Of a stretch of 64,000 nucleotides of DNA, positions 24,023-63,007 are shown in pieces. Within the stretch, counting starts at the first letter, position 1; each line of letters starts with the position of its first letter. The notes beneath the pieces were generated by a model. It did no database searches. It was not told where the DNA came from and saw only the letters and a list, made by a program, of their open reading frames with translations. This DNA is from Burkholderiales bacterium (GTDB taxonomy: Bacteria > Pseudomonadota > Gammaproteobacteria > Burkholderiales > WYBJ01), in assembly GCA_022841915.1 (NCBI GenBank), contig JALHQN010000013.1, positions 1-64,000 of the forward strand, read 5' to 3'. Both the position numbers and the translations under genes were made by a program.

Positions 24023-24994
24023 TCAGCGCTTGAGAACCTCGGGGTTGACGATGCTGCGAGGCGTTCCGTTCGCATAGGCCAGCAGGTTCTCGAAGGCTTC
24101 GCCGAAGTACAGCTCGAAGGTTTCGTGTTCCGCCCAGGCGATGTGATGCGTGCAAAGCACATTGGGGAGGGACAGCAGCGGGTGGTTGCCGCCGATCACC
24201 GGCTCGCGCTCGTACACATCGACGGCGGCGAATCCGGGGCGTCCGGCGCGCAGGGCTTCGACGAGCGCGCCTTCCTCGATGAGCTCGGCGCGGGCGGTGT
24301 TGACGAGCAGCGCGGTCGGTTTCATCCGGGCGAGATCGGCGCGCGTCACGATGCCCTTGGTCTGGGCCGTCATGCGCATCAGCAGGCACAGCACGTCCGA
24401 GCGCTCGAAGAGTTCTGCCTTGTCGGCGGCCACTTCGTAGCCTGCGTCACGCGCCCGTTGGGCAGATTTTTCCTGCCCGAGGACCAGCACCTTCATACCG
24501 AAGGCCGCGCCGATGCGGGCGACCAGGCTGCCGATCGTCCCCAGGCCGAAGATGCCCAGGGTGCTGCCCGAGAGCCGATGCGACAGCGTGCAAGGCCATT
24601 CCCCGCGTTTCATGCGATCTATTTCCTGGGGGATATGGCGGCGCGAAGCGAGAATCAGGGCCCAGGTGAGTTCGGCCGGGGCGATCGGCGAGGCCTGGGT
24701 GCCGGCGGTCACCAGCACACCTCGTTCGGTGCACGCGGCCACATCGATATGATGGGTGCTGCGACCGGTCTGGCTGATCACCTTGAGATTGGGCAGGCGC
24801 TCGAGCAATTCACGCGGAAAGCGGCTGCGTTCGCGCACGGGAACGATGGCGTCCGCGCTCTGCAGCCGGCGCGCGAAATCGGCAAGATCTGCAGCGGGCT
24901 CCCGGTAGCGAATGATCTCGTGGTTTTTGAGCAGGGCGTAGCAGCGCAGCGTGTGGACCAGATTTTGATAGTCGTCCGGGATCGCGATTCTCAT
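24023..24994 (-). CDS. D-2-hydroxyacid dehydrogenase family protein
   Basis: The 323-residue protein has the NAD-binding motif LGIFGLGTIGSLVARIGAAF. The catalytic residues are the Arg in LVNTARAELIEEG, the Glu in DVYEREP and the His in LCTHHIAWAE. The family includes glycerate, formate and phosphoglycerate dehydrogenases; the substrate cannot be told. There is no ACT domain, so a serine-biosynthesis SerA of the long type is unlikely. It is transcribed toward the flavodoxin gene. Confidence 0.9.
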   Translation of the reverse strand: MRIAIPDDYQNLVHTLRCYALLKNHEIIRYREPAADLADFARRLQSADAIVPVRERSRFPRELLERLPNLKVISQTGRSTHHIDVAACTERGVLVTAGTQASPIAPAELTWALILASRRHIPQEIDRMKRGEWPCTLSHRLSGSTLGIFGLGTIGSLVARIGAAFGMKVLVLGQEKSAQRARDAGYEVAADKAELFERSDVLCLLMRMTAQTKGIVTRADLARMKPTALLVNTARAELIEEGALVEALRAGRPGFAAVDVYEREPVIGGNHPLLSLPNVLCTHHIAWAEHETFELYFGEAFENLLAYANGTPRSIVNPEVLKR

Positions 24995-25794: not shown

Positions 25795-26736
25795 TTACTG
25801 CGCCTTGATCAACGAAGCCACCTGGCTCACGTCGATGGTGCGGGCCTTCTGCTCGATCTCCCCGGCATAGCGTCCGCGCAGGCTCTGAGCCTGGCCCAGC
25901 AGCGCCTGGAAGCTCGCCTTCATCTTCTCCATGGAAAGCGTGCGCCCACCGCCGTAGTACTGCTTGGCGATTTGTCCGAGGGCGTAGGTGGAGGCGAAGG
26001 CCATGGCCGAACTGGTGGCCTGACGTCCGAGCGCACCGCCGAGCCCGCCGGCGACTTTACGCAGCAGACCTCCGATCACCTTGCGCGCGACTTCCTCGAC
26101 ATATTGGGAGGTGAGGCCCACGCCCAGTGCGGCGAGCAGCTCCTTGATATGGCTGCGGTCGAGTTCGTAGCCGTGGGCCTTGCCGATGCGATACACGAGT
26201 TTCATCTGCAACGGAATGATCGCCATGGTCGCCAGCGACTGCGGCAACAGTTCCAGCGCCCCGTTGAGAATGGCGTAGTTCAGGATCATCTTGTCCAGTT
26301 CGGCGGCCTTCACGGGCTGGGCGGCGACCACGGGGCCGGGGGGAGGCTCGTCGATAGGCACCGTGGCGACGGCGTCTGCCGCCTGCGTGTAGGCCTGTGC
26401 GCCGGCGGCGTCCAGGTTCAGCTTGCTGCGCAACTCGGCGAGGAACTTGCGCTCGGCTTCGTTCTGCAAGCCGTCGGCATCGCAGACACAGACGGCCATC
26501 TCGAACGCGAGCTGCCGCGACTCGGCCGACTGCAGCGCCTTGACTGCATCGTCGAGGCTGCGCCGCTTGAGCATGACATCGAGATAGATGGCGGTCAGAT
26601 CGACGCTCGATGCACTCGACAGGGCGTCGGCGATCGACTTGAGCTGCGCGCGTTCGCGCTCGTCCTTCGTGGCGTCGGCGAAGGCGGCCATGAGGCCGAT
26701 CGTCAGGATGGCGTTCTTTTCGGCTTCGGTCATCAC
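25795..26736 (-). CDS. TerB-like domain protein with DUF697-like region
   Basis: The 313-residue protein begins with a helical TerB/DjlA-like domain at residues 1-125. Its acidic loops FADATKDERERAQ and CVCDADGLQNEAERKFLAEL have the metal-binding look of the TerB family. A Pro-rich linker leads to a second domain at about 150-270, with hydrophobic helices (LPQSLATMAIIPLQMKLVYR, GGLLRKVAGGLGGALGRQA) resembling DUF697. That part may associate with the membrane. Its role is not known; stress or tellurite-type functions are only suggested by the family name. Confidence 0.7.
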   Translation of the reverse strand: MMTEAEKNAILTIGLMAAFADATKDERERAQLKSIADALSSASSVDLTAIYLDVMLKRRSLDDAVKALQSAESRQLAFEMAVCVCDADGLQNEAERKFLAELRSKLNLDAAGAQAYTQAADAVATVPIDEPPPGPVVAAQPVKAAELDKMILNYAILNGALELLPQSLATMAIIPLQMKLVYRIGKAHGYELDRSHIKELLAALGVGLTSQYVEEVARKVIGGLLRKVAGGLGGALGRQATSSAMAFASTYALGQIAKQYYGGGRTLSMEKMKASFQALLGQAQSLRGRYAGEIEQKARTIDVSQVASLIKAQ

Positions 26737-26857: not shown

Positions 26858-27598
26858 CTACTGGAAGTACATCCCGCCGTTGACGAGATAACACTGTCCG
26901 GTGATGAAGCTCGCGTCCTTGCTCGCCAGGTAGAGCATCAGCGAGGTGCATTCCTCGGGTTTGCCCAGTCGGGGAATGGGCTGCATCGGGCGAACGGTCT
27001 TCTTGTCTTTCTGGAACGCATCGCGCTCGACGTCGAAGGTGCCCGGGCCGATGCAATTGGCGGTGATGTTGTGCGGAGCGAACTCGCGGGCGATGCCGCG
27101 GGTGAAACCGATGATGCCGGTCTTCACGGCCGCCTTGGCAGGGCCCACGCCGAGGAAGGGCGCGATGCCCGAGAAGTTGATGATGCGTCCCCATTGCTTT
27201 TCGATCATGCCGGGCAGCACCGCGCGACAGATGTTGCGCGGCCCGGTCATGTTGACGGCGATGTTGCGCTGCCATGTCTCGTCGCTTTCGCTCAGGAAGG
27301 CGCCTTCGGCACGGTACACCGCGTTGTTGATGGCGACGTCCACGGAGCCGAGCTCGTCACGCGCGGTGCGAACGAAACGCTCGACCGATTCTCGATCGGC
27401 GACATCGCACTGTACGGCGACGACCTTGACGCCCAAGCCGCGCAGCTCCTCGGCGACGGCGTTCAATTCCTGCATCTTCGAGCTGGTGCAAATGGCGAGG
27501 TTCGCCCCTTCGCGGGCGAACTGGACGGCCGCGAGCCGGCCCATGTTGCGGCTCGCACCGGTGATCAATACGTTCTTGCCTTTGAGTCCGATATCCAT
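26858..27598 (-). CDS. SDR-family protein lacking the catalytic Tyr
   Basis: The 246-residue protein has a Rossmann fold with cofactor loop LITGASRNMGR, in which Asn replaces the middle Gly of TGxxxGxG. It also has CDVAD and INNAV in place of NNAG. Ser 143 is present (INFSGIAP). The position of the catalytic Tyr holds K155 in GVGPAKAAVKTG, while K159 occupies the usual Lys position. A classical reductase mechanism is therefore doubtful. C-terminal features such as NCIGPGTF and GQCYLVNGG are family-typical. It is divergent from the next SDR gene. Confidence 0.88.
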   Translation of the reverse strand: MDIGLKGKNVLITGASRNMGRLAAVQFAREGANLAICTSSKMQELNAVAEELRGLGVKVVAVQCDVADRESVERFVRTARDELGSVDVAINNAVYRAEGAFLSESDETWQRNIAVNMTGPRNICRAVLPGMIEKQWGRIINFSGIAPFLGVGPAKAAVKTGIIGFTRGIAREFAPHNITANCIGPGTFDVERDAFQKDKKTVRPMQPIPRLGKPEECTSLMLYLASKDASFITGQCYLVNGGMYFQ

Positions 27599-27755
27599 GG
27601 TGTTCCTCCTTGGGTTTGGGCGCTCATCATAAAGTTTCCGCGTGCGGCTGAGCTAGACCCTTGCAAAGACGGGCGGAGTATCATCGAGCGCCTCGGCGGC
27701 GCACTGCGATGCGAGGATCAGGCGCCGGCGGTGATCACATACCAAGGAGAGCGAC

Positions 27756-28529
27756 ATGGATCTGGGACTGGCAGGCAAAGTGGCGATCGTGACGGGCGCC
27801 AGCGAAGGCATCGGCAAGGAGACTGCGGCAGTGTTGGCCCGCGAGGGTGCCAAAGTGGCGATCTGTTCTCGTCGGCCGGAGGCGGTGGCCGCCGCCGTGG
27901 CCGAACTGCAGCGCGCCGGGGGCGATGTCATGGGTCTGGCGGCCGACGTCAGCAGGCCCGAAGACATCCAGCGGCTGGTCGAGGCGACCGCGCAGCGCTT
28001 CGGCCGCATCGACATCCTGGTGAACAACGCCGGCACCTCCAAACGCGGCACGTTCATGGAGAACGACGATGCGGTATGGGCAGCGGATTTCGAGTTGAAA
28101 GTGTTCGGCGCCATCCGCCTGTCGAAACTCGTCATCCCGCACATGCGCAAAGTGGGTGGCGGGCGCATCATCAATGTCACCAACATCGGCGCGAAGACCC
28201 CCGCGGCGGGATCGACGCCGACCTCCATCTCGCGTGCGGCGGGCATCGCGCTGACCAAGGCGATGTCGAAGGAGTTCGCGCCCGAGAACATCCTCGTCAA
28301 TACGGTGTGCATCGGCCGGATCAAGTCGGGTCAGCACGAGCGCCGCTTCACCAAAGCCGGCGAGAGCGCCGAAGCCTATTACGAGCGGGTCGGCAAGGAG
28401 ATTCCGATGCGCCGCGTGGGCGAGACCGTGGAGGCGGCCAATGCCATCGTGTTCTTCGCCTCCAGCATGGGCAGCTACATCACCGGCACCAGCATCAACG
28501 CCGACGGCGGCGCAGCCGGGACGGTATAG
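27756..28529 (+). CDS. SDR-family protein with TxxxR in place of YxxxK
   Basis: The 257-residue protein has an intact cofactor site (VTGASEGIGKE), ADVSR and VNNAGTS. The active-site region reads INVTNIGAKTPAAG then TPTSISRAAGIALTKAM. The usual Ser is replaced by Thr or Asn (142-143), Tyr by T156 and Lys by R160. I recall this RAAGIALTK pattern in other orphan SDRs, so it is likely a conserved divergent subfamily rather than a decayed gene. Function unknown. A perfect hairpin follows the stop codon. Confidence 0.88.
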   Translation: MDLGLAGKVAIVTGASEGIGKETAAVLAREGAKVAICSRRPEAVAAAVAELQRAGGDVMGLAADVSRPEDIQRLVEATAQRFGRIDILVNNAGTSKRGTFMENDDAVWAADFELKVFGAIRLSKLVIPHMRKVGGGRIINVTNIGAKTPAAGSTPTSISRAAGIALTKAMSKEFAPENILVNTVCIGRIKSGQHERRFTKAGESAEAYYERVGKEIPMRRVGETVEAANAIVFFASSMGSYITGTSINADGGAAGTV

Positions 28530-28542
28530 TTCTTCGAAGAAG

Positions 28543-28571
28543 CCGGGGCTGCGCGTGCGTCGCAGCCCCGG
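28543..28571. terminator. strong hairpin between convergent genes
   Basis: CCGGGGCTGCG (28543-28553) and CGCAGCCCCGG (28561-28571) form a perfect 11-bp stem around a 7-base loop. It lies between the convergent ends of two SDR genes. There is no T-run on either strand, so it is terminator-like rather than a classical terminator. Confidence 0.5.
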
Positions 28572-28602
28572 TGCGACGGCATGGAAGCCCCGTCTTGGAA
28601 CG

Positions 28603-29388
28603 CTAGATGATCGGCAGCGCCGCGCCGTCCATAGGAATGACGGCACCGCTCACGTAGCTCGCCCGCTCGGAGGCGAGAAACACGGCGACCGCCGCCACTT
28701 CCTCCGGCTGGCCGTAGCGGCCCATGGGGATCGCCGCTTCCAGGCGCTTGAGCGCTTCGTCCTCGCTGATGTTCTTGTCCTTGGCTTCGAGTTCGAGCGC
28801 CTGCTTCACCCGGCCGGTATACGTCGATGCCGGATTGATGACGTTCAGCCGCACGCCATGCTTGCCCAGGGCGTTCGCCATGCCCACCGTGACGAGCATG
28901 AGCGCGGCGTTGGCCGCACCGCCGGCCAGATGCGTGGGCTGCGCGCGCTTGCCGCCTGTGCCGACGATATTCACGATCGCGCCGCGCTTGCGCGCGATCA
29001 TGCCGTCGCGCACCGCATCCATGGCGTTCACATAGGGGAAGAACTTCGCGTCCATGCCGTGATGCCATGCGTGCGCGTCGTATTGGTCGAGCGAGTGACG
29101 TTTCGCCGCACCGGCCGAATTGACCAGCACATCGACCGGGCCGAGCGCTTTCTCGGTGGCGGCGGCCATCGCCTGGGCATGGTCGGCTTGCGTGAGATCC
29201 GCGGCCACGGCAAAGACCTCGATGCCTTCCTTGGCGAGTGCTTCGCGAGCGCTGTCCAGATTTTTCTGGCTGCGCGATGCGATGGCGACCTTGGCCCCCT
29301 CGGCTGCGAAGGCGCGCGCGCAGGCAAGCCCGATGCCTTTGCTGCCGCCCGTGATCAATACCACCTTGTCCTTGAGTCCGAGTTCCAC
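28603..29388 (-). CDS. SDR-family protein with GxxxN in place of YxxxK
   Basis: The 261-residue protein has the cofactor loop LITGGSKGIGLA and VNSAGAAKRH. At the active site, VNIVGTGGKRAQPTHLAGGA then ANAALMLVT shows G156 at the Tyr position and N160 at the Lys position, with no Ser in the usual place. The GGAANAALM pattern is one I recall from other divergent SDRs. It probably binds NAD(P) but cannot use the standard proton relay. It lies just downstream of the amidohydrolase gene on the same strand (62 bases) and is probably co-transcribed. Confidence 0.88.
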   Translation of the reverse strand: MELGLKDKVVLITGGSKGIGLACARAFAAEGAKVAIASRSQKNLDSAREALAKEGIEVFAVAADLTQADHAQAMAAATEKALGPVDVLVNSAGAAKRHSLDQYDAHAWHHGMDAKFFPYVNAMDAVRDGMIARKRGAIVNIVGTGGKRAQPTHLAGGAANAALMLVTVGMANALGKHGVRLNVINPASTYTGRVKQALELEAKDKNISEDEALKRLEAAIPMGRYGQPEEVAAVAVFLASERASYVSGAVIPMDGAALPII

Positions 29389-29450: not shown

Positions 29451-31172
29451 TCAATGCTGTCCGGCGCGCACCAGCCGGCCCGGACGTGCGCCAGTCTCGA
29501 CGCCGTTCTCGAAGATCGGTACGCCCGCCACGAGGATCGCCTTGTAGCCGTCCACGTGCTGCACCAGGCGCTTGCCGGCGGCCGGCAGGTCGTGGACCAA
29601 CTCGGGCGCATGCAGACGCAGGCGATCGAAGTCGATCACGTTGATGTCGGCCTTGAGGCCGGGCGCGAGGCGGCCGCGATCGTTCAAGCCGAAGAAGTCC
29701 GCCGTTTCGCTCGTCTGGCGCTTCACCACCCATTCCAGCGGCAGGCGTGGGCCGCGGGTCCGGTCGCGCACCCAGTGCGTCAGCATGAAAGTCGGCACGC
29801 TCGAATCGCAGATCAGCCCGCAATGGGCGCCGCCGTCGCTCAGCCCGAGCAAGGTGGCCGGATCGGTGAGCATGCTGTGGACGACGCCATGGTCGCCATG
29901 CACGTAGTTGGTGATCGGAAAGAACAGCATGCGGCGGCCGCCGTCGCCGACGAGATAGTCGTAGCAGAACGCCTGCGGCGTTTGACCGGCCCGCGCCGCC
30001 ATCGCCGCGATGCTGTCGGCTTCCTCGGGCTCGTAGTTGGGCGGGTCGCCCAGCAGGTACATCCGATCCCAGCGCGTCGCCATCGGCCGCTGCACCGGCG
30101 GGATGATTTCCAGCAAGGTCTCCGAGAACGGTTCGTCCAGAATGCGCTGGCGCAGTGCCGGATCCTGCAAGCGGGCGACGCGTTCCTCGTGTGGGAGGCC
30201 GTTGAGCTGCGCGAAGCTCGGTTTGGCGGCGAACGGGCTCAGCGACGTGGTGAGACCGAGGATGAGGCCGACCGGGCGGCCGGCGATCTGCGCGGTGAGC
30301 GAAACGCCGCTCTCGCGCACGCGCCGGGTGCCTTGCATCAGTCGCTGCCAGCGTTGCGGATCGCTCAACCGGTCGGTGAGCAGAAACCAGATGGGGCGCC
30401 CCGCCGTCTTGCCGAGCCGGGTGATCCAGTCGAATTCGGTCGCTTCGTCCTCGAAGTCGCTCAGCATGCCGAAGACGCCGTGGCCGACCTTGCCGAGCAC
30501 GCCGCCCAGGGCCAGCAACTCGTCTTCGCCGGCATAGCGCCCGGGCACTTGTTCGCCGCGTGTGGTGCGATGCGATTCGGTGCGCGAGGTGGTGAAGCCG
30601 AAGGCGCCTGCACGCAGCGCCTCTTCGGCCAGATCCCGCATCGCGGCGATGTCGTCGGCAGTCGCGCGCTCGTGGCGCACGGCGCGTTCGCCCATGACGT
30701 AGACGCGCAGCGGGTGGTGCGGCAATTGCGCCCCGATATCGATGGTACGCGGTAGGCCGTCGAGGGCGTCGAGGAACTGCGGAAAGCTCTCCCAGTTCCA
30801 GGGCAGCCCGGCGCGCAGGGTAGCGCCCGGAATATCCTCCACGCCCTCCATGAGGTCGATCACGCGATCACGATCCTGCGGGCGCACCGGCGCGAATCCC
30901 ACGCCGCAATTGCCGAACATGACCGTGGTCGATCCATGCCACGAGGACGGGGCGAGCACCGGATCCCAAGTGGCCTGACCGTCGTAGTGCGTGTGGATGT
31001 CGACCCAGCCCGGTGTCACGAGATGGCCGCTGGCATCGATATCGCGGCGCGCCGCACCCGCTTTGCCGCCGACTTGAGTCAGCCTGCCATGGTCGATGGC
31101 GACATCGCCCGTGTAGCGTTCCTTGCCCGTGCCGTCGACGATCGTCCCGCCACGGATTGCCAGATCGTGCAT
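29451..31172 (-). CDS. amidohydrolase, N-acyl-D-amino-acid deacylase-like
   Basis: The 573-residue enzyme starts at ATG 31172 after a strong AGGAGGAG ribosome-binding site. The N-terminal beta domain (MHDLAIRGGTIVDGTGKERY) leads to the metal motif WVDIHTHYDGQATWDP, followed by GNCGVGFAPVRP, which is characteristic of D-aminoacylases. Later come SDGGAHCG, holding the catalytic Asp, and LAPGLKADINVIDF. It probably hydrolyses N-acyl amino acids or a cyclic amide. Its downstream neighbour is a divergent SDR; the divergent neighbour is an EamA transporter. Confidence 0.9.
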   Translation of the reverse strand: MHDLAIRGGTIVDGTGKERYTGDVAIDHGRLTQVGGKAGAARRDIDASGHLVTPGWVDIHTHYDGQATWDPVLAPSSWHGSTTVMFGNCGVGFAPVRPQDRDRVIDLMEGVEDIPGATLRAGLPWNWESFPQFLDALDGLPRTIDIGAQLPHHPLRVYVMGERAVRHERATADDIAAMRDLAEEALRAGAFGFTTSRTESHRTTRGEQVPGRYAGEDELLALGGVLGKVGHGVFGMLSDFEDEATEFDWITRLGKTAGRPIWFLLTDRLSDPQRWQRLMQGTRRVRESGVSLTAQIAGRPVGLILGLTTSLSPFAAKPSFAQLNGLPHEERVARLQDPALRQRILDEPFSETLLEIIPPVQRPMATRWDRMYLLGDPPNYEPEEADSIAAMAARAGQTPQAFCYDYLVGDGGRRMLFFPITNYVHGDHGVVHSMLTDPATLLGLSDGGAHCGLICDSSVPTFMLTHWVRDRTRGPRLPLEWVVKRQTSETADFFGLNDRGRLAPGLKADINVIDFDRLRLHAPELVHDLPAAGKRLVQHVDGYKAILVAGVPIFENGVETGARPGRLVRAGQH

Positions 31173-32287: not shown

Positions 32288-33259
32288 ATGAGTTCAGGTC
32301 TACGAATCTGCATGGGCATCGTCGTTCTGGCATCGGCGGCTGCGCCGGTCCTGGCGCAGAACTACCCGGTGAAACCGATCCGCTGGGTCGTGCCTTTTCC
32401 GCCCGGCGGCGGGACTGACCTCACCACGCGCGCGCTTGCGCCGAAGCTGAGCGAGGCGCTCGGCCAGCCCGTCATCGTCGACAATCGTCCGGGATCGGGC
32501 GGAACCATCGGCGTCGCGATCGGCGCCAAGGCGCCCGCCGATGGCTATCACCTCGTCACCGGACAAATGGCGACGATCGCCATCGCGCCCGCGATCTACC
32601 CCAAGCTGCCCTACGATCCGCTGAAGGATCTCGCCACGGTCACGCAGGCGGTGTCGGCCTCGCTGGTGCTGGTGTCGCATCCCTCGTTTCCAGCCCGCAA
32701 TGTCGGCGAGCTGATCAAGCTGGCTCGCTCGAAGCCGGGAGAGATCACGTTCGGATCGCCGGGCAACGGCACCGGCGGGCATCTGGGGGTCGAACTGGTC
32801 AAGCTTGCTGCGAAGATCGACATGCTGCATATCCCTTACAAGGGGGCTTCGCCGGCATTGACCGATCTGCTCGGCGGCCAGATCGCGCTTTATCTGAGTT
32901 CGATCCCGCCGGCTGCGCCGCTCATCAATAGCGGGCGGCTCAAGGGGCTAGGCGTGACGGGGGCCAAGCGTACCCCGAGCCTGCCGAAGGTGCCGACCAT
33001 CTCCGAATCCGGGCTGCCGGGCTACGTGGTCGATAACTGGTACGGGGTGATGGTGCCCGCAGGCGTGCCGAGAGAGATCATCGCGCGACTCAACAGCGAA
33101 CTGGTGCGCATCCTTGCGACGCCGGAAGTCAGGGAGCGCTATGCCACCGATGGCAGCGAGCCCGCACCGAGCACGCCGGAGCAGTTCGCTGCCCTGGTTC
33201 GCGAAGAGGTCCAGAAGTGGGGCAAGGTGGTGCGCGAGGCCAAGGTCAAGCTCGACTGA
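32288..33259 (+). CDS. Bug/TctC-type periplasmic binding protein
   Basis: The 323-residue protein has a signal peptide ending in VLAQ, then NYPVKPIRWVVPFPPGGGTD, DNRPGSGGTIG and APADGYHL, the hallmark sequence of tripartite tricarboxylate receptors. These bind carboxylates or amides in the periplasm for TctAB-type transporters, or act as orphan sensors. No tctAB genes are adjacent here, so the partner is elsewhere, perhaps the pair at 56.3-58.3 kb. GGAGG lies about 11 bases before the ATG. Confidence 0.92.
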   Translation: MSSGLRICMGIVVLASAAAPVLAQNYPVKPIRWVVPFPPGGGTDLTTRALAPKLSEALGQPVIVDNRPGSGGTIGVAIGAKAPADGYHLVTGQMATIAIAPAIYPKLPYDPLKDLATVTQAVSASLVLVSHPSFPARNVGELIKLARSKPGEITFGSPGNGTGGHLGVELVKLAAKIDMLHIPYKGASPALTDLLGGQIALYLSSIPPAAPLINSGRLKGLGVTGAKRTPSLPKVPTISESGLPGYVVDNWYGVMVPAGVPREIIARLNSELVRILATPEVRERYATDGSEPAPSTPEQFAALVREEVQKWGKVVREAKVKLD

Positions 33260-48623: not shown

Positions 48624-49589
48624 TCAATTGAGCGTCAAGTTCGCAGCCTTCACTACCTTCGCCCATTTCTCCGTTTCCTGCTTCAAGAATTCGCTGAACT
48701 TCGCCGGCTCCATCAGCATGGGTTCGGCGCCTTGCGTGAGCAGGAATTTTTGCGTCTCCGGGGAGTTCACGAGCTTGGCGAATTCGCCGTAGAGTCGTTG
48801 CACGATCGCACTCGGCGTGTTGGCCGGCGCCATGATGCCGAACCAGGAGGCGACATCGAAGCCGGGCAGCCCTTGCTCGGCAATGGTCGGAACGTCCGGC
48901 ATCACGGCCGAGCGCTGCTGCGTGCCCATGCCGAGCGCACGCAGCTTACCGGCCTTGATCTGCGGCCCTGCAGCGATGAGCCCGCTGCAGTACATGTGGG
49001 TCTGGCCGCCGATGGTGTCCATCATCGCCGGGGCGCCGCCCTTGTAGGGCACGTGCACGATGTCGATGTTGGCCATGGATTTGAGCAGTTCCCAGCACAA
49101 GTGCGGCGTGCCGGCATTGCCCGAGGAGGCGAACAGCATCTGGCCGGGACGCTTTTTGGCCAGGGCGATGAACTCCTTGACGTTCCTCGCCGGCAGCGAC
49201 GGATGGATGACGAGCATGTACGGAACGTTGGCGATCATCGCCACCGGCGTGAGGTCTTTCTGGCTGTCGTAGTTGAGCTTGAAGACGCTCGGGGCGATCG
49301 CCTGCGGGCCGTTGGTGGCCACCAGAAGGGTATAACCGTCCGGGGCCTGCTTGGAGACATATTCCGAGCCGACGTTGCCGCCAGCACCCGGACGATTCTC
49401 CACCAGTACCTGCTGGCCGAGCGGCGCGTTCAAACGCTGTGCGAGAAAGCGCGCCATGATGTCGTTGCTGCTCGATCCCGCGGGATAAGGGACGACCAGT
49501 CGAATGGGCTTGTTTGGATATTCCTGCGCCGAGACCGGACCAACGAGCGTCATACACGCAGCCAACCAAGCGAGCGGCTTGAGCTTCAT
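48624..49589 (-). CDS. Bug/TctC-type periplasmic binding protein
   Basis: The 321-residue protein has a signal peptide (MKLKPLAWLAACMTLVGPVS), then QEYPNKPIRLVVPYPAGSSS, ENRPGAGGNVG and QAPDGYTLLVATN, as in tripartite tricarboxylate receptors. The usual PGGGTD motif appears as PAGSSSND. It has a good GGAGG site before the ATG. No transporter genes are adjacent on its strand, so it is one of the orphan receptors common in Burkholderiales. Confidence 0.92.
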   Translation of the reverse strand: MKLKPLAWLAACMTLVGPVSAQEYPNKPIRLVVPYPAGSSSNDIMARFLAQRLNAPLGQQVLVENRPGAGGNVGSEYVSKQAPDGYTLLVATNGPQAIAPSVFKLNYDSQKDLTPVAMIANVPYMLVIHPSLPARNVKEFIALAKKRPGQMLFASSGNAGTPHLCWELLKSMANIDIVHVPYKGGAPAMMDTIGGQTHMYCSGLIAAGPQIKAGKLRALGMGTQQRSAVMPDVPTIAEQGLPGFDVASWFGIMAPANTPSAIVQRLYGEFAKLVNSPETQKFLLTQGAEPMLMEPAKFSEFLKQETEKWAKVVKAANLTLN

Positions 49590-49805: not shown

Positions 49806-50651
49806 TCAGGGTTTGGCCTGTATGGCCGGGTTGCGGCCTTGCACCGCATCTTGCATGCGGGCTTCGATGGCCGTACCGATCCGCGGATGGGTGATGACGT
49901 AGAAGCGTTCTTCCCGCACGGCGTCGAGAACTTTGTCGGCGACATCGTCGGCGCTCACCTTGCCCTTGCGCAGCAGTGTGCGCATCGCTTCGCGGCGCTC
50001 GCGATCGATTTCCGCTGCTTCCGGCACGGCCAGCGCCTGCGGTCGATTGCGCTCGGCATTCCAGATCTCGGTATCCACCCAGGCGGGCAGCAACAGCGAC
50101 ACCTTGAGCTGAGCGCCGATCTCGGCCAGATCCTGATACAGCGTCTCGGTGAGTGTGACGACGCCGTGCTTGGAGACGTTGTAGACGCTCATCGATGGCG
50201 TGCTCAGCAGGCCAGCGACCGAGGCGGTGTTGACCATGTGGCATGCGCACGCTTGCTCGAGCATGAGAGGGACGAAGGTTCGAACGCCGTGGATCACGCC
50301 CCAGAGATTGACGCCCAGCACCCATTGCCAGTCGCGCACGTCGGCTTCCCAGGCGCGCCGCCGCAGGCCGCCGACGCCGGCGTTGTTGCACACCAGATGG
50401 ATCGCGCCGAAGCGCGATTGCGCGGCTTGGGCCAGCGCTTGCACTTGCTCGGCTTGCGAGACGTCGGTCGGCACGGCAAGCGCGGCCACGCCCAGGGCTT
50501 CGATTTCGGCGCGGGCTCGCTCCAGCGGCCGGGGTTCGATATCCGCGAGCACGATGTTCATGCCCTCGCGGGCGAATCGCCGCGCCATCGCGAAGCCGAT
50601 GCCGCTGGCCGCGCCCGTGATCACGGCAGTCTTGTCGATCAGATCCCTCAT
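49806..50651 (-). CDS. SDR-family oxidoreductase with canonical active site
   Basis: The 281-residue protein has VITGAASGIGFAMARRFA, CNNAGVGG, the catalytic Ser in VNTASVAGLLSTPS and the Tyr/Lys pair in YNVSKHGV. A full reductase mechanism is expected, unlike the three SDRs at 26.9-29.4 kb. Its C-terminal extension includes a long acidic helix (IDRERREAMRTLLRKGKVSA) of the type seen in fatty-acyl or short-chain alcohol dehydrogenases. It is divergent from the phosphotransferase gene. ATG 50651 was chosen because the frame before it looks non-coding. Confidence 0.93.
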   Translation of the reverse strand: MRDLIDKTAVITGAASGIGFAMARRFAREGMNIVLADIEPRPLERARAEIEALGVAALAVPTDVSQAEQVQALAQAAQSRFGAIHLVCNNAGVGGLRRRAWEADVRDWQWVLGVNLWGVIHGVRTFVPLMLEQACACHMVNTASVAGLLSTPSMSVYNVSKHGVVTLTETLYQDLAEIGAQLKVSLLLPAWVDTEIWNAERNRPQALAVPEAAEIDRERREAMRTLLRKGKVSADDVADKVLDAVREERFYVITHPRIGTAIEARMQDAVQGRNPAIQAKP

Positions 50652-50725
50652 GATGGAAAGATCATAGCACCGAGGCCGCGGCCTCTTGCGCGACACCGTG
50701 TCGCACCCCTACCATCGCGGTCGAC

Positions 50726-62050: not shown

Positions 62051-63007
62051 ATGAAAGCTGTGTCCCTGGCAACGATGCTTGCTCTAGCCGCTGCGCCCAG
62101 CGCTTTCGCGCAGACCTATCCCACCAAGCCGATCCGGCTGATCGTGGGATTCACCCCGGGCGGCGGCGTCGACATCAACGCACGCATGCTCGCACCCAAG
62201 CTCACCGAGTATCTCGGCCAGCAGGTGATCGTCGAGAATCGTCCCGGCGCCGGTACCAATATCGCCAACGAACTGGTGGCCAAGTCCGCGCCCGATGGCT
62301 ATACCTTGCTCATCAATACCGCGGCGCTGGTCATCAACATGTCGCTGTATCCCAAGCTCAACTACGACGCCACCCGGGACTTGGCGGGGCTGTCGACCTT
62401 CTCTCGCAGCCCCAATATCCTGGTGGTGCACTCCTCGGTGCCGGTGAAGACGATCAAGGAGTTCGTAGCCTTGGCGCGTTCTAGGCCCGGCGGGCTGAAC
62501 TACTCGTCGTCGGGCTCCGGAACGACTCAGCACCTGAGCGGCGAACTTTTCAACGTGCGCAACAAGGTGAAGATGGTCCACGTGCCTTACCGGGGCACGG
62601 CGCCGTCGCTCACCGCGCTGATCGGCGGCGAGGTGGACATGAGCTTCGCTAACATTCCCGCCATTCATGCGCACGTCGTGTCCGGGCGGTTACGCCCGCT
62701 CGCGAACACCGGTCCGCAGCGGGCCGAGCGTTTGCCGAACGTGCCGACGATGAAGGAGTCGGGCATCGACATGGAAGTCGTGGTCTGGTACGGGCTGTTC
62801 GCGCCCAAGGCCACGCCGCGTGAAATCGTCACCACGCTCTCCGAGGCGATCAACCGGGCCTCTCAGGCGCCGGATGTCCGTCAGCGATTGATCGAAATGG
62901 GCGGCGAACCGGCCGGCATGGCGCCGGAGGCCTTCGACAAATTCGTTCTGGCCGAGCGCGCTCAGTGGGCGGAAGTCGTGCGCCTCTCGGGTGCCAAGGC
63001 CGAGTAG
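62051..63007 (+). CDS. Bug/TctC-type periplasmic binding protein
   Basis: The 318-residue protein has a signal peptide (MKAVSLATMLALAAAPSAFA), then QTYPTKPIRLIVGFTPGGGV, ENRPGAGTNIANELVAK and SAPDGYTLLINTA. It is a typical short receptor of the tripartite tricarboxylate type. No transporter genes adjoin it. It lies 28 bases after the rhomboid gene and is convergent with the MFS gene at the edge. Confidence 0.93.
   Translation: MKAVSLATMLALAAAPSAFAQTYPTKPIRLIVGFTPGGGVDINARMLAPKLTEYLGQQVIVENRPGAGTNIANELVAKSAPDGYTLLINTAALVINMSLYPKLNYDATRDLAGLSTFSRSPNILVVHSSVPVKTIKEFVALARSRPGGLNYSSSGSGTTQHLSGELFNVRNKVKMVHVPYRGTAPSLTALIGGEVDMSFANIPAIHAHVVSGRLRPLANTGPQRAERLPNVPTMKESGIDMEVVVWYGLFAPKATPREIVTTLSEAINRASQAPDVRQRLIEMGGEPAGMAPEAFDKFVLAERAQWAEVVRLSGAKAE

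Follow-up and report, generated by a model that had tools for sequence, protein, structure and literature searches.

Three neighbouring short-chain dehydrogenases/reductases without the catalytic tyrosine in a Burkholderiales genome: two candidate atypical reductases with a lysine at the tetrad asparagine site and one FabG-like variant

The stretch of DNA considered here, hereafter referred to as the window, comprises the 64,000 nucleotides at positions 1 to 64,000 of contig JALHQN010000013.1 of a Burkholderiales bacterium (assembly GCA_022841915.1) and contains three neighbouring genes for short-chain dehydrogenases/reductases (SDRs), which we call A, B and C (Table 1). The three open reading frames, their coordinates and the residues present at the aligned YxxxK position (K155/K159 in A, T156/R160 in B and G156/N160 in C) are exactly those given in a first-pass annotation of the window. 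The strands alternate: 157 bases separate the divergent A and B, 73 bases the convergent B and C, and only C and the neighbouring amidohydrolase gene are co-oriented, 62 bases apart. All three proteins match the Pfam models PF13561 (164 bits for A, 174 for B and 155 for C, with a cut-off of 27) and PF00106 (far above its cut-off of 26.6 bits), and the predicted models of A and C display a Rossmann-type SDR fold. Among the 25 best NCBIfam families per protein, no cut-off is reached: A scores 189.1 bits with the FabG equivalog TIGR01830 (cut-off 297.75), B 210.7 with PRK07062 (cut-off 266) and C 217.5 with PRK06125 (cut-off 261).

The N-S-Y-K tetrad is absent from all three proteins. In the alignment of 66 SDRs from the same genome from which the tetrad columns were read, A displays N-G-K-K, B displays K-N-T-R and C displays K-G-G-N, the Ser column being ambiguous by one residue in A (Ser143 precedes Gly144) and in B (Thr142 precedes Asn143). 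In B and C, the Tyr and the canonical Lys are both gone and a lysine, K115, occupies the site of the tetrad Asn. In A, the tetrad Asn116 and the canonical Lys159 are kept, and only the Tyr is gone from its site. The proposal that all three proteins had lost the Tyr–Lys pair thus holds for B and C; it had to be rejected for A, since K159 is the canonical lysine. The SDR encoded at 49.8 kb, used as a control, does keep YNVSK (Y172/K176). The cofactor sites, which had been considered usable in all three proteins, look so in B and C: their TGxxxGxG motifs read TGASEGIG and TGGSKGIG, respectively, and Arg39, which is invariant in the B family and in the C family, suggests by its presence that both proteins use NADP(H). 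In A, the motif (residues 13–20) reads TGASRNMG, with N18, invariant in 10/10 homologues, in place of the second glycine.

Table 1. Coordinates of the three SDR genes, of their catalytic-site codons and of two other genes in the window
Feature	Position	Strand	Remarks
SDR A, 246 amino acids	26858..27598	(-)	FabG-like; tetrad columns N116-G144(S143)-K155-K159
A, codons K155-A-A-V-K159 at the YxxxK position	27122..27136	(-)	K155 and K159 invariant, 10/10
SDR B, 257 amino acids	27756..28529	(+)	Tetrad columns K115-N143(T142)-T156-R160
B, K115 codon, tetrad-Asn site	28098..28100	(+)	Invariant, 25/25
B, codons T156-S-I-S-R160	28221..28235	(+)	T156 and R160 invariant, 25/25
SDR C, 261 amino acids, GTG start	28603..29388	(-)	Tetrad columns K115-G143-G156-N160
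C, codons G156-G-A-A-N160	28909..28923	(-)	G156 and N160 invariant, 27/27
C, codon of H153, a possible substitute acid/base three residues ahead of the Tyr site	28930..28932	(-)	Invariant, 27/27
C, codons K115-F-F-P-Y119, helix 4; Tyr is a candidate alternative acid	29032..29046	(-)	K115 27/27, Y119 23/27; Y119 codon placed by arithmetic
Amidohydrolase PF07969, D-aminoacylase-like over the first ~195 residues (PDB match)	29451..31172	(-)	62 bases upstream of C, same strand
Control SDR, canonical Y172-x-x-x-K176 (YNVSK; codons 50169-50183)	49806..50696	(-)	Tetrad N130-S159-Y172-K176

The altered centres are well conserved. K155 and K159 are invariant in the 10 homologues of A (at least 61% identity), T156, R160 and K115 in the 25 homologues of B (at least 47% identity), and G156, N160, K115 and H153 in the 27 homologues of C (at least 49% identity), each count including the window's own sequence. 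When same-genome copies are included with the window's own sequence and rows of at least 44% identity are considered, the motif is kept in 11/11, 32/32 and 32/32 rows for A, B and C, respectively, and no standard YxxxK was found in any of the three families among the homologues examined. This invariance indicates that A, B and C represent three stable subfamilies. Decay or sequencing error was rejected as the origin of the motifs, because each of them is invariant across species. Of 399 genomes of the order, 7 contain A, 35 contain B and 41 contain C at the search thresholds applied; this genome set overlaps with the 60-genome set used for the comparison of gene order.

How unusual such proteins are was assessed in the genome itself (6.2 Mb, 96% complete), where a PF13561 search at E up to 1e-15 gave 66 places; this count covers the PF13561 matches of this one genome and excludes SDRs matching only other models. 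Forty of the 66 proteins carry Y/K, one carries Y/Q and 25 are devoid of the Tyr, 12 of which are also devoid of the Lys; one of the 25 Tyr-less rows is FabI-like, as judged by eye. A, B and C form the only trio of SDR genes within 4-kb steps, the five other groups being pairs made up of Y/K proteins. The chance that three out of three lack the Tyr is P = 0.050 (0.046 if the FabI-like row is left out), and at this value of 0.05 we rejected the clustering as strong evidence.

A lysine at the tetrad-Asn site is associated with the loss of the canonical Lys. It is present (i) in 9 of the 13 proteins of this genome that lack the canonical Lys versus 0/53 of those that have it; (ii) in 5/8 versus 0/17 of 25 representatives from other genomes, obtained by clustering 114 SDR-like proteins at 50% identity; and (iii) in 68/70 versus 0/10 of a wider set, consisting of 80 of 572 confirmed loci found with the C-family profile (one translation, which contains a stop, was read as X). 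According to the record titles, the GxxxN proteins among these 80 listed loci come mostly from Proteobacteria and also from Actinomycetota, and those with TxxxR or SxxxR and the lysine come mostly from Bacillota. In a quick tree, A stands alone with its own family. When the 16 Lys-at-Asn rows were constrained to form one clade, the fit was better than that of the free quick tree, and the constraint is not rejected (p-AU, from the approximately unbiased test, 0.911); judging from these sequences, the lysine may result from a single ancestral change. Forcing A to join the Lys-at-Asn rows likewise raised the likelihood over that of the unconstrained tree, again without rejection (p-AU 0.89), which means that the quick tree is not optimal; the parsimony counts obtained on it (seven changes of Tyr, five of Lys and three to Lys at the Asn site) were not used.

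The closest structurally characterized relative of B and C is AerF of Microcystis aeruginosa (PDB codes: 6jh7, 6jha, 6jhb), an enzyme of the aeruginosin pathway that the title of its paper calls a C=C double-bond reductase. AerF is the first PDB match of both B (9.5e-48) and C (1.6e-42), as well as of the family profiles, with 4e-63 for the C profile (next match 3.5e-47) and 1.6e-64 for the B profile (next match 6.9e-60). Furthermore, AerF chains take the first four places among the fold matches of the C model, which scores 90.5 in the predicted local distance difference test (pLDDT), with TM 0.92 and 36% identity for 6jha. The tetrad columns of AerF read K-G-S-N, so that AerF shares with B and C a lysine at the Asn site and a Tyr site without Tyr, and with C also the Asn at the Lys site. 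AerF differs from C by a Ser instead of Gly at the Tyr site and by the absence of a His three residues earlier, and B differs from AerF by TxxxR instead of SxxxN and by an Ala four residues after the lysine. The second known counterpart is Q9HYA2 (PDB codes: 3lf1, 3lf2), with columns K-S-T-R. It shares with B the Asn-site Lys, the Tyr-site Thr and the Lys-site Arg, whereas at the Ser column, where Q9HYA2 has Ser, B has Asn143 preceded by Thr142; it sits on a long branch of the quick tree. We take Q9HYA2 to be a Pseudomonas aeruginosa protein, and its atypical K-S-T-R centre was reportedly published by Huether et al. in 2010; the open-access papers listed by our search included none on Q9HYA2 as a protein. 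A presumed parallel to AerF is BacG/YwfH, from bacilysin biosynthesis.

The conserved tyrosines of the three families are Y223 and Y237 (9/9 each), Y244 (8/9) and Y95 (7/10) in A; Y209 (24/25), Y241 (23/25) and Y208 (18/25) in B; and Y245 (27/27), Y119 (23/27), Y225 (17/27), Y103 and Y190 (4/27 each) in C. Tyr119 of C lies four residues past K115, and the remaining homologues have Thr or Cys there. AerF also has a Tyr at this place, four residues after its Asn-site lysine. Among proteins with Asn at the Lys site, the Tyr is present in 55/60 of the listed loci, 4/6 in this genome and 3/3 of the representatives, as compared with 2/9, 0/40 and 1/13, respectively, of the Y/K proteins; the loci were found with the C-family profile and possibly form one clade, so these counts are not independent. 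At the same position, B and its TxxxR relatives mostly have Ala, and Q9HYA2 has Val. C-type proteins thus display a K-x-x-x-Y on helix 4 (residues 105–133 in the C model), versus the canonical Y-x-x-x-K on helix 5; the Tyr, one turn beyond the lysine, may point away from the nicotinamide ring. The other candidate in C is H153. Its location just before the helix spanning residues 154–175 of the C model means that it may face the active site. Its place is occupied by Tyr in 30 and by His in 28 of the 60 listed loci with Asn at the Lys site, and by His or Tyr in 0/9 of the Y/K proteins of the same set and in 2/53 of those of the other set (one His, one Tyr).

Taken together, these comparisons lead us to the following reading, to which we give a probability of about one half: B and C would be NADPH-dependent reductases of a known atypical SDR type, A would be a rarer FabG-like variant of another type, and the three would be neighbours by virtue of the local gene order. 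By their sequences, B and C fall into a group of classical SDRs that is widespread and has an atypical centre, namely a Lys at the Asn site together with TxxxR (B) or GxxxN (C), and the first-pass suggestion of unusual chemistry is fair for these two, given that AerF is named a C=C reductase and shares the Asn-site lysine. In such enzymes, NADPH would be bound and the hydride passed on without the usual tyrosine, K115 together with R160 (B) or N160 (C) taking over the contacts of the canonical Lys and Asn with the cofactor ribose and the solvent. On the strength of the title of the AerF paper, the acceptor would most likely be a conjugated C=C bond, as in an enal, an enone or a 2-oxo acid, and the proton could be supplied by water or, in the case of C, by H153 or Tyr119.

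A departs from this scheme. Its PDB sequence, profile and fold matches are mostly FabG-type proteins (3-oxoacyl-acyl carrier protein reductases), with which it shares the tetrad Asn and Lys; unlike them, it has a Lys for the Tyr, a Gly in the Ser column and N18 in the glycine motif. With Asn116 and Lys159 retained and Lys155 in the place of the Tyr, A is a FabG-like SDR and probably an active oxidoreductase as well, in which K155 may act as the acid/base. No SDR with a KxxxK motif was seen among the open-access papers listed by our search, although one may have been published.

Several observations, however, weigh against the assignment of B and C to an AerF-like type and of A to a working FabG-like variant. 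AerF is only ~35% identical to B and C, and the reaction may consequently differ. AerF has a Leu at the place of H153, as read from a printed alignment, and the place is taken by R, S, A or N in four of the six xN proteins encoded in this genome, so that the histidine is a trait of C and its sister subfamily only. The association of the Asn-site lysine with the loss of the canonical Lys has exceptions: the SxxxR, DxxxR and YxxxQ proteins of this genome lack the lysine, and the SxxxR proteins among the 80 loci are split, 2/4 with it and 2/4 without. Moreover, the representatives and the 80 loci were drawn from relatives of the queries, and if the Lys-at-Asn rows form one clade, the association reflects one ancestral event and not many. 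Well-conserved candidate substitute acids, Tyr119 in C and Tyr209 in B, would allow an ordinary carbonyl reductase. As for A, it is uncertain whether the protein binds the cofactor, in view of N18 in its glycine motif, and the model is weak at residues 147–150 and 190–202 (pLDDT <50).

The leading alternative, which we consider rather unlikely, is that the three proteins catalyse conventional carbonyl reduction or alcohol dehydrogenation and take the proton from another residue (Tyr119 or H153 of C, Tyr209 of B, Lys155 of A) or from the substrate. The conservation of these residues (23/27, 27/27, 24/25 and 10/10, respectively) is what one would expect from this alternative, and there is a precedent in SimC7, a ketoreductase that has Ile/His instead of YxxxK and uses substrate-assisted catalysis. 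Other Tyr-less members of the superfamily are eugenol synthase (PIP family), which keeps the Lys alone and needs it, Lys132Ala and Lys132Gln being inactive, and isopiperitenone reductase, in which a Glu replaces the Tyr and which carries out an ene reduction (PMC10143770, PMC4988501, PMC1991597 and PMC5039031). As described there, all three are working NADPH-dependent SDRs that, like A, B and C, are devoid of the catalytic Tyr; their YxxxK replacements (Ile/His, Lys alone and Glu) differ from those seen here. Against carbonyl reduction stands the fact that AerF, the closest solved homologue of B and C, is named a double-bond reductase; since AerF also has a Tyr four residues after the lysine, a Tyr there does not by itself mean ketoreduction.

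It is improbable, in our view, that A, B and/or C are pseudo-enzymes, which would bind the cofactor or nothing at all and support an active SDR in a structural or regulatory role. The loss of the usual acid and, in A, the N18 substitution would fit such a role, as would the presence of BbsD (PDB code: 7pcs) among the 24 PDB sequences that match the A profile with E values no higher than 1e-45, the 7pcs entry being titled heterotetrameric SDR BbsCD. BbsC is said to be the inactive partner of BbsD. Yet the tetrad columns hold invariant polar or charged residues (N116, K155 and K159 in A; K115, T156 and R160 in B; K115 and N160 in C), a conservation that is not expected if only the fold were maintained. 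In addition, no Y/K SDR adjoins A, B or C, the control gene being 20 kb off, and SimC7 illustrates that the loss of the Tyr need not mean inactivity. The related proposal of the first-pass annotation, that the proteins bind the cofactor for regulation, found no positive support.

A more speculative possibility, which we regard as quite improbable, is that in the C family and in AerF the Tyr–Lys pair has been rebuilt in mirror order, the K115-x-x-x-Y119 of helix 4 replacing the Y-x-x-x-K of helix 5 with the aid of H153, and that A contains a two-lysine site in which Lys155 acts as the acid/base or, ahead of the hydride transfer, condenses with a carbonyl substrate to a Schiff base.

The arrangement of the three genes was compared with that in three congeneric genomes (G001, G002 and G003), whose assemblies are in pieces, and A-B-C is not one conserved unit there. 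A was not found in G003 and lies on other contigs in G001 and G002. In G003, B and C lie side by side and converge across 295 bases; they are on one contig with five genes between them in G002 and on different contigs in G001, where a distant linkage of the three genes could still exist given the fragmented assemblies. C adjoins an amidohydrolase ortholog (77% identity) and a class III aminotransferase (Pfam) in G001, an aminotransferase-like gene (judged by eye) in G002 and homologues of hydantoinase B/A (HyuB/HyuA) in G003. The neighbours of the A homologues vary: a thiamine pyrophosphate enzyme and an amidohydrolase in two genomes and, in a third genome from another family of the order, a 2-hydroxyacid dehydrogenase (L201:1478-2461) that directly follows the A homologue and is ~50% identical to the one encoded at 24023-24994 in the window. 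The latter gene has the orientation of A and is separated from it by a single gene (25795-26736), whose product gives weak DUF533 and DUF697 matches, both under the cut-off. Many mutually similar genes, which we take to encode periplasmic tripartite-tricarboxylate (Bug-type) receptors, are found in the window (e.g. 32312-33259, 48624-49589 and 62051-63007) and in the loci of the relatives.

The grouping of A, B and C is thus probably incidental, and the clustering, from which a shared pathway had been proposed, does not support one. It is very unlikely that the three genes and the amidohydrolase gene form one functional unit acting in one pathway, as their adjacency, the convergence of B and C in G003 and the amidohydrolase ortholog next to C in G001 might suggest, since the strands alternate, A is elsewhere or not found in the three congeneric genomes, five genes separate C from B in G002, and Tyr-less SDRs make up 25 of the 66 in this genome, the chance of three together being 0.05.

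Outside the genus, C homologues (51–61% identity) are located between ubiA and ubiD in 15/27 loci, and at least one of the two genes lies near the C homologue, within ~1500 bases, in 19/27; these loci come from 27 of the 37 non-genus genomes with a C match. Pfam confirms UbiA and UbiD in one of them. With flanks of the same size, neither ubiA nor ubiD is found beside C in the four loci of the genus (4/4), and the ubiA-C-ubiD order is not mentioned in the titles and abstract openings of the open-access literature searched.

Proteins of this kind are usually labelled either with the generic name 'SDR family oxidoreductase' or with that of a canonical ketoreductase. Should B and C prove to be ene-reductases, some of the Tyr-less SDRs counted here (25 in this genome) and of their relatives elsewhere would be misread under such names, and candidates for biocatalysis could be flagged by a simple rule: TxxxR or GxxxN together with a Lys at the Asn site. 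A share of 25 Tyr-less proteins out of 66 SDRs in one genome is either unusual or perhaps typical of the order. The cluster itself matters little; what is worth following is the helix-4 K-x-x-x-Y, the KxxxK family of A and the ubiA-C-ubiD order, which provides a testable role for the C family.

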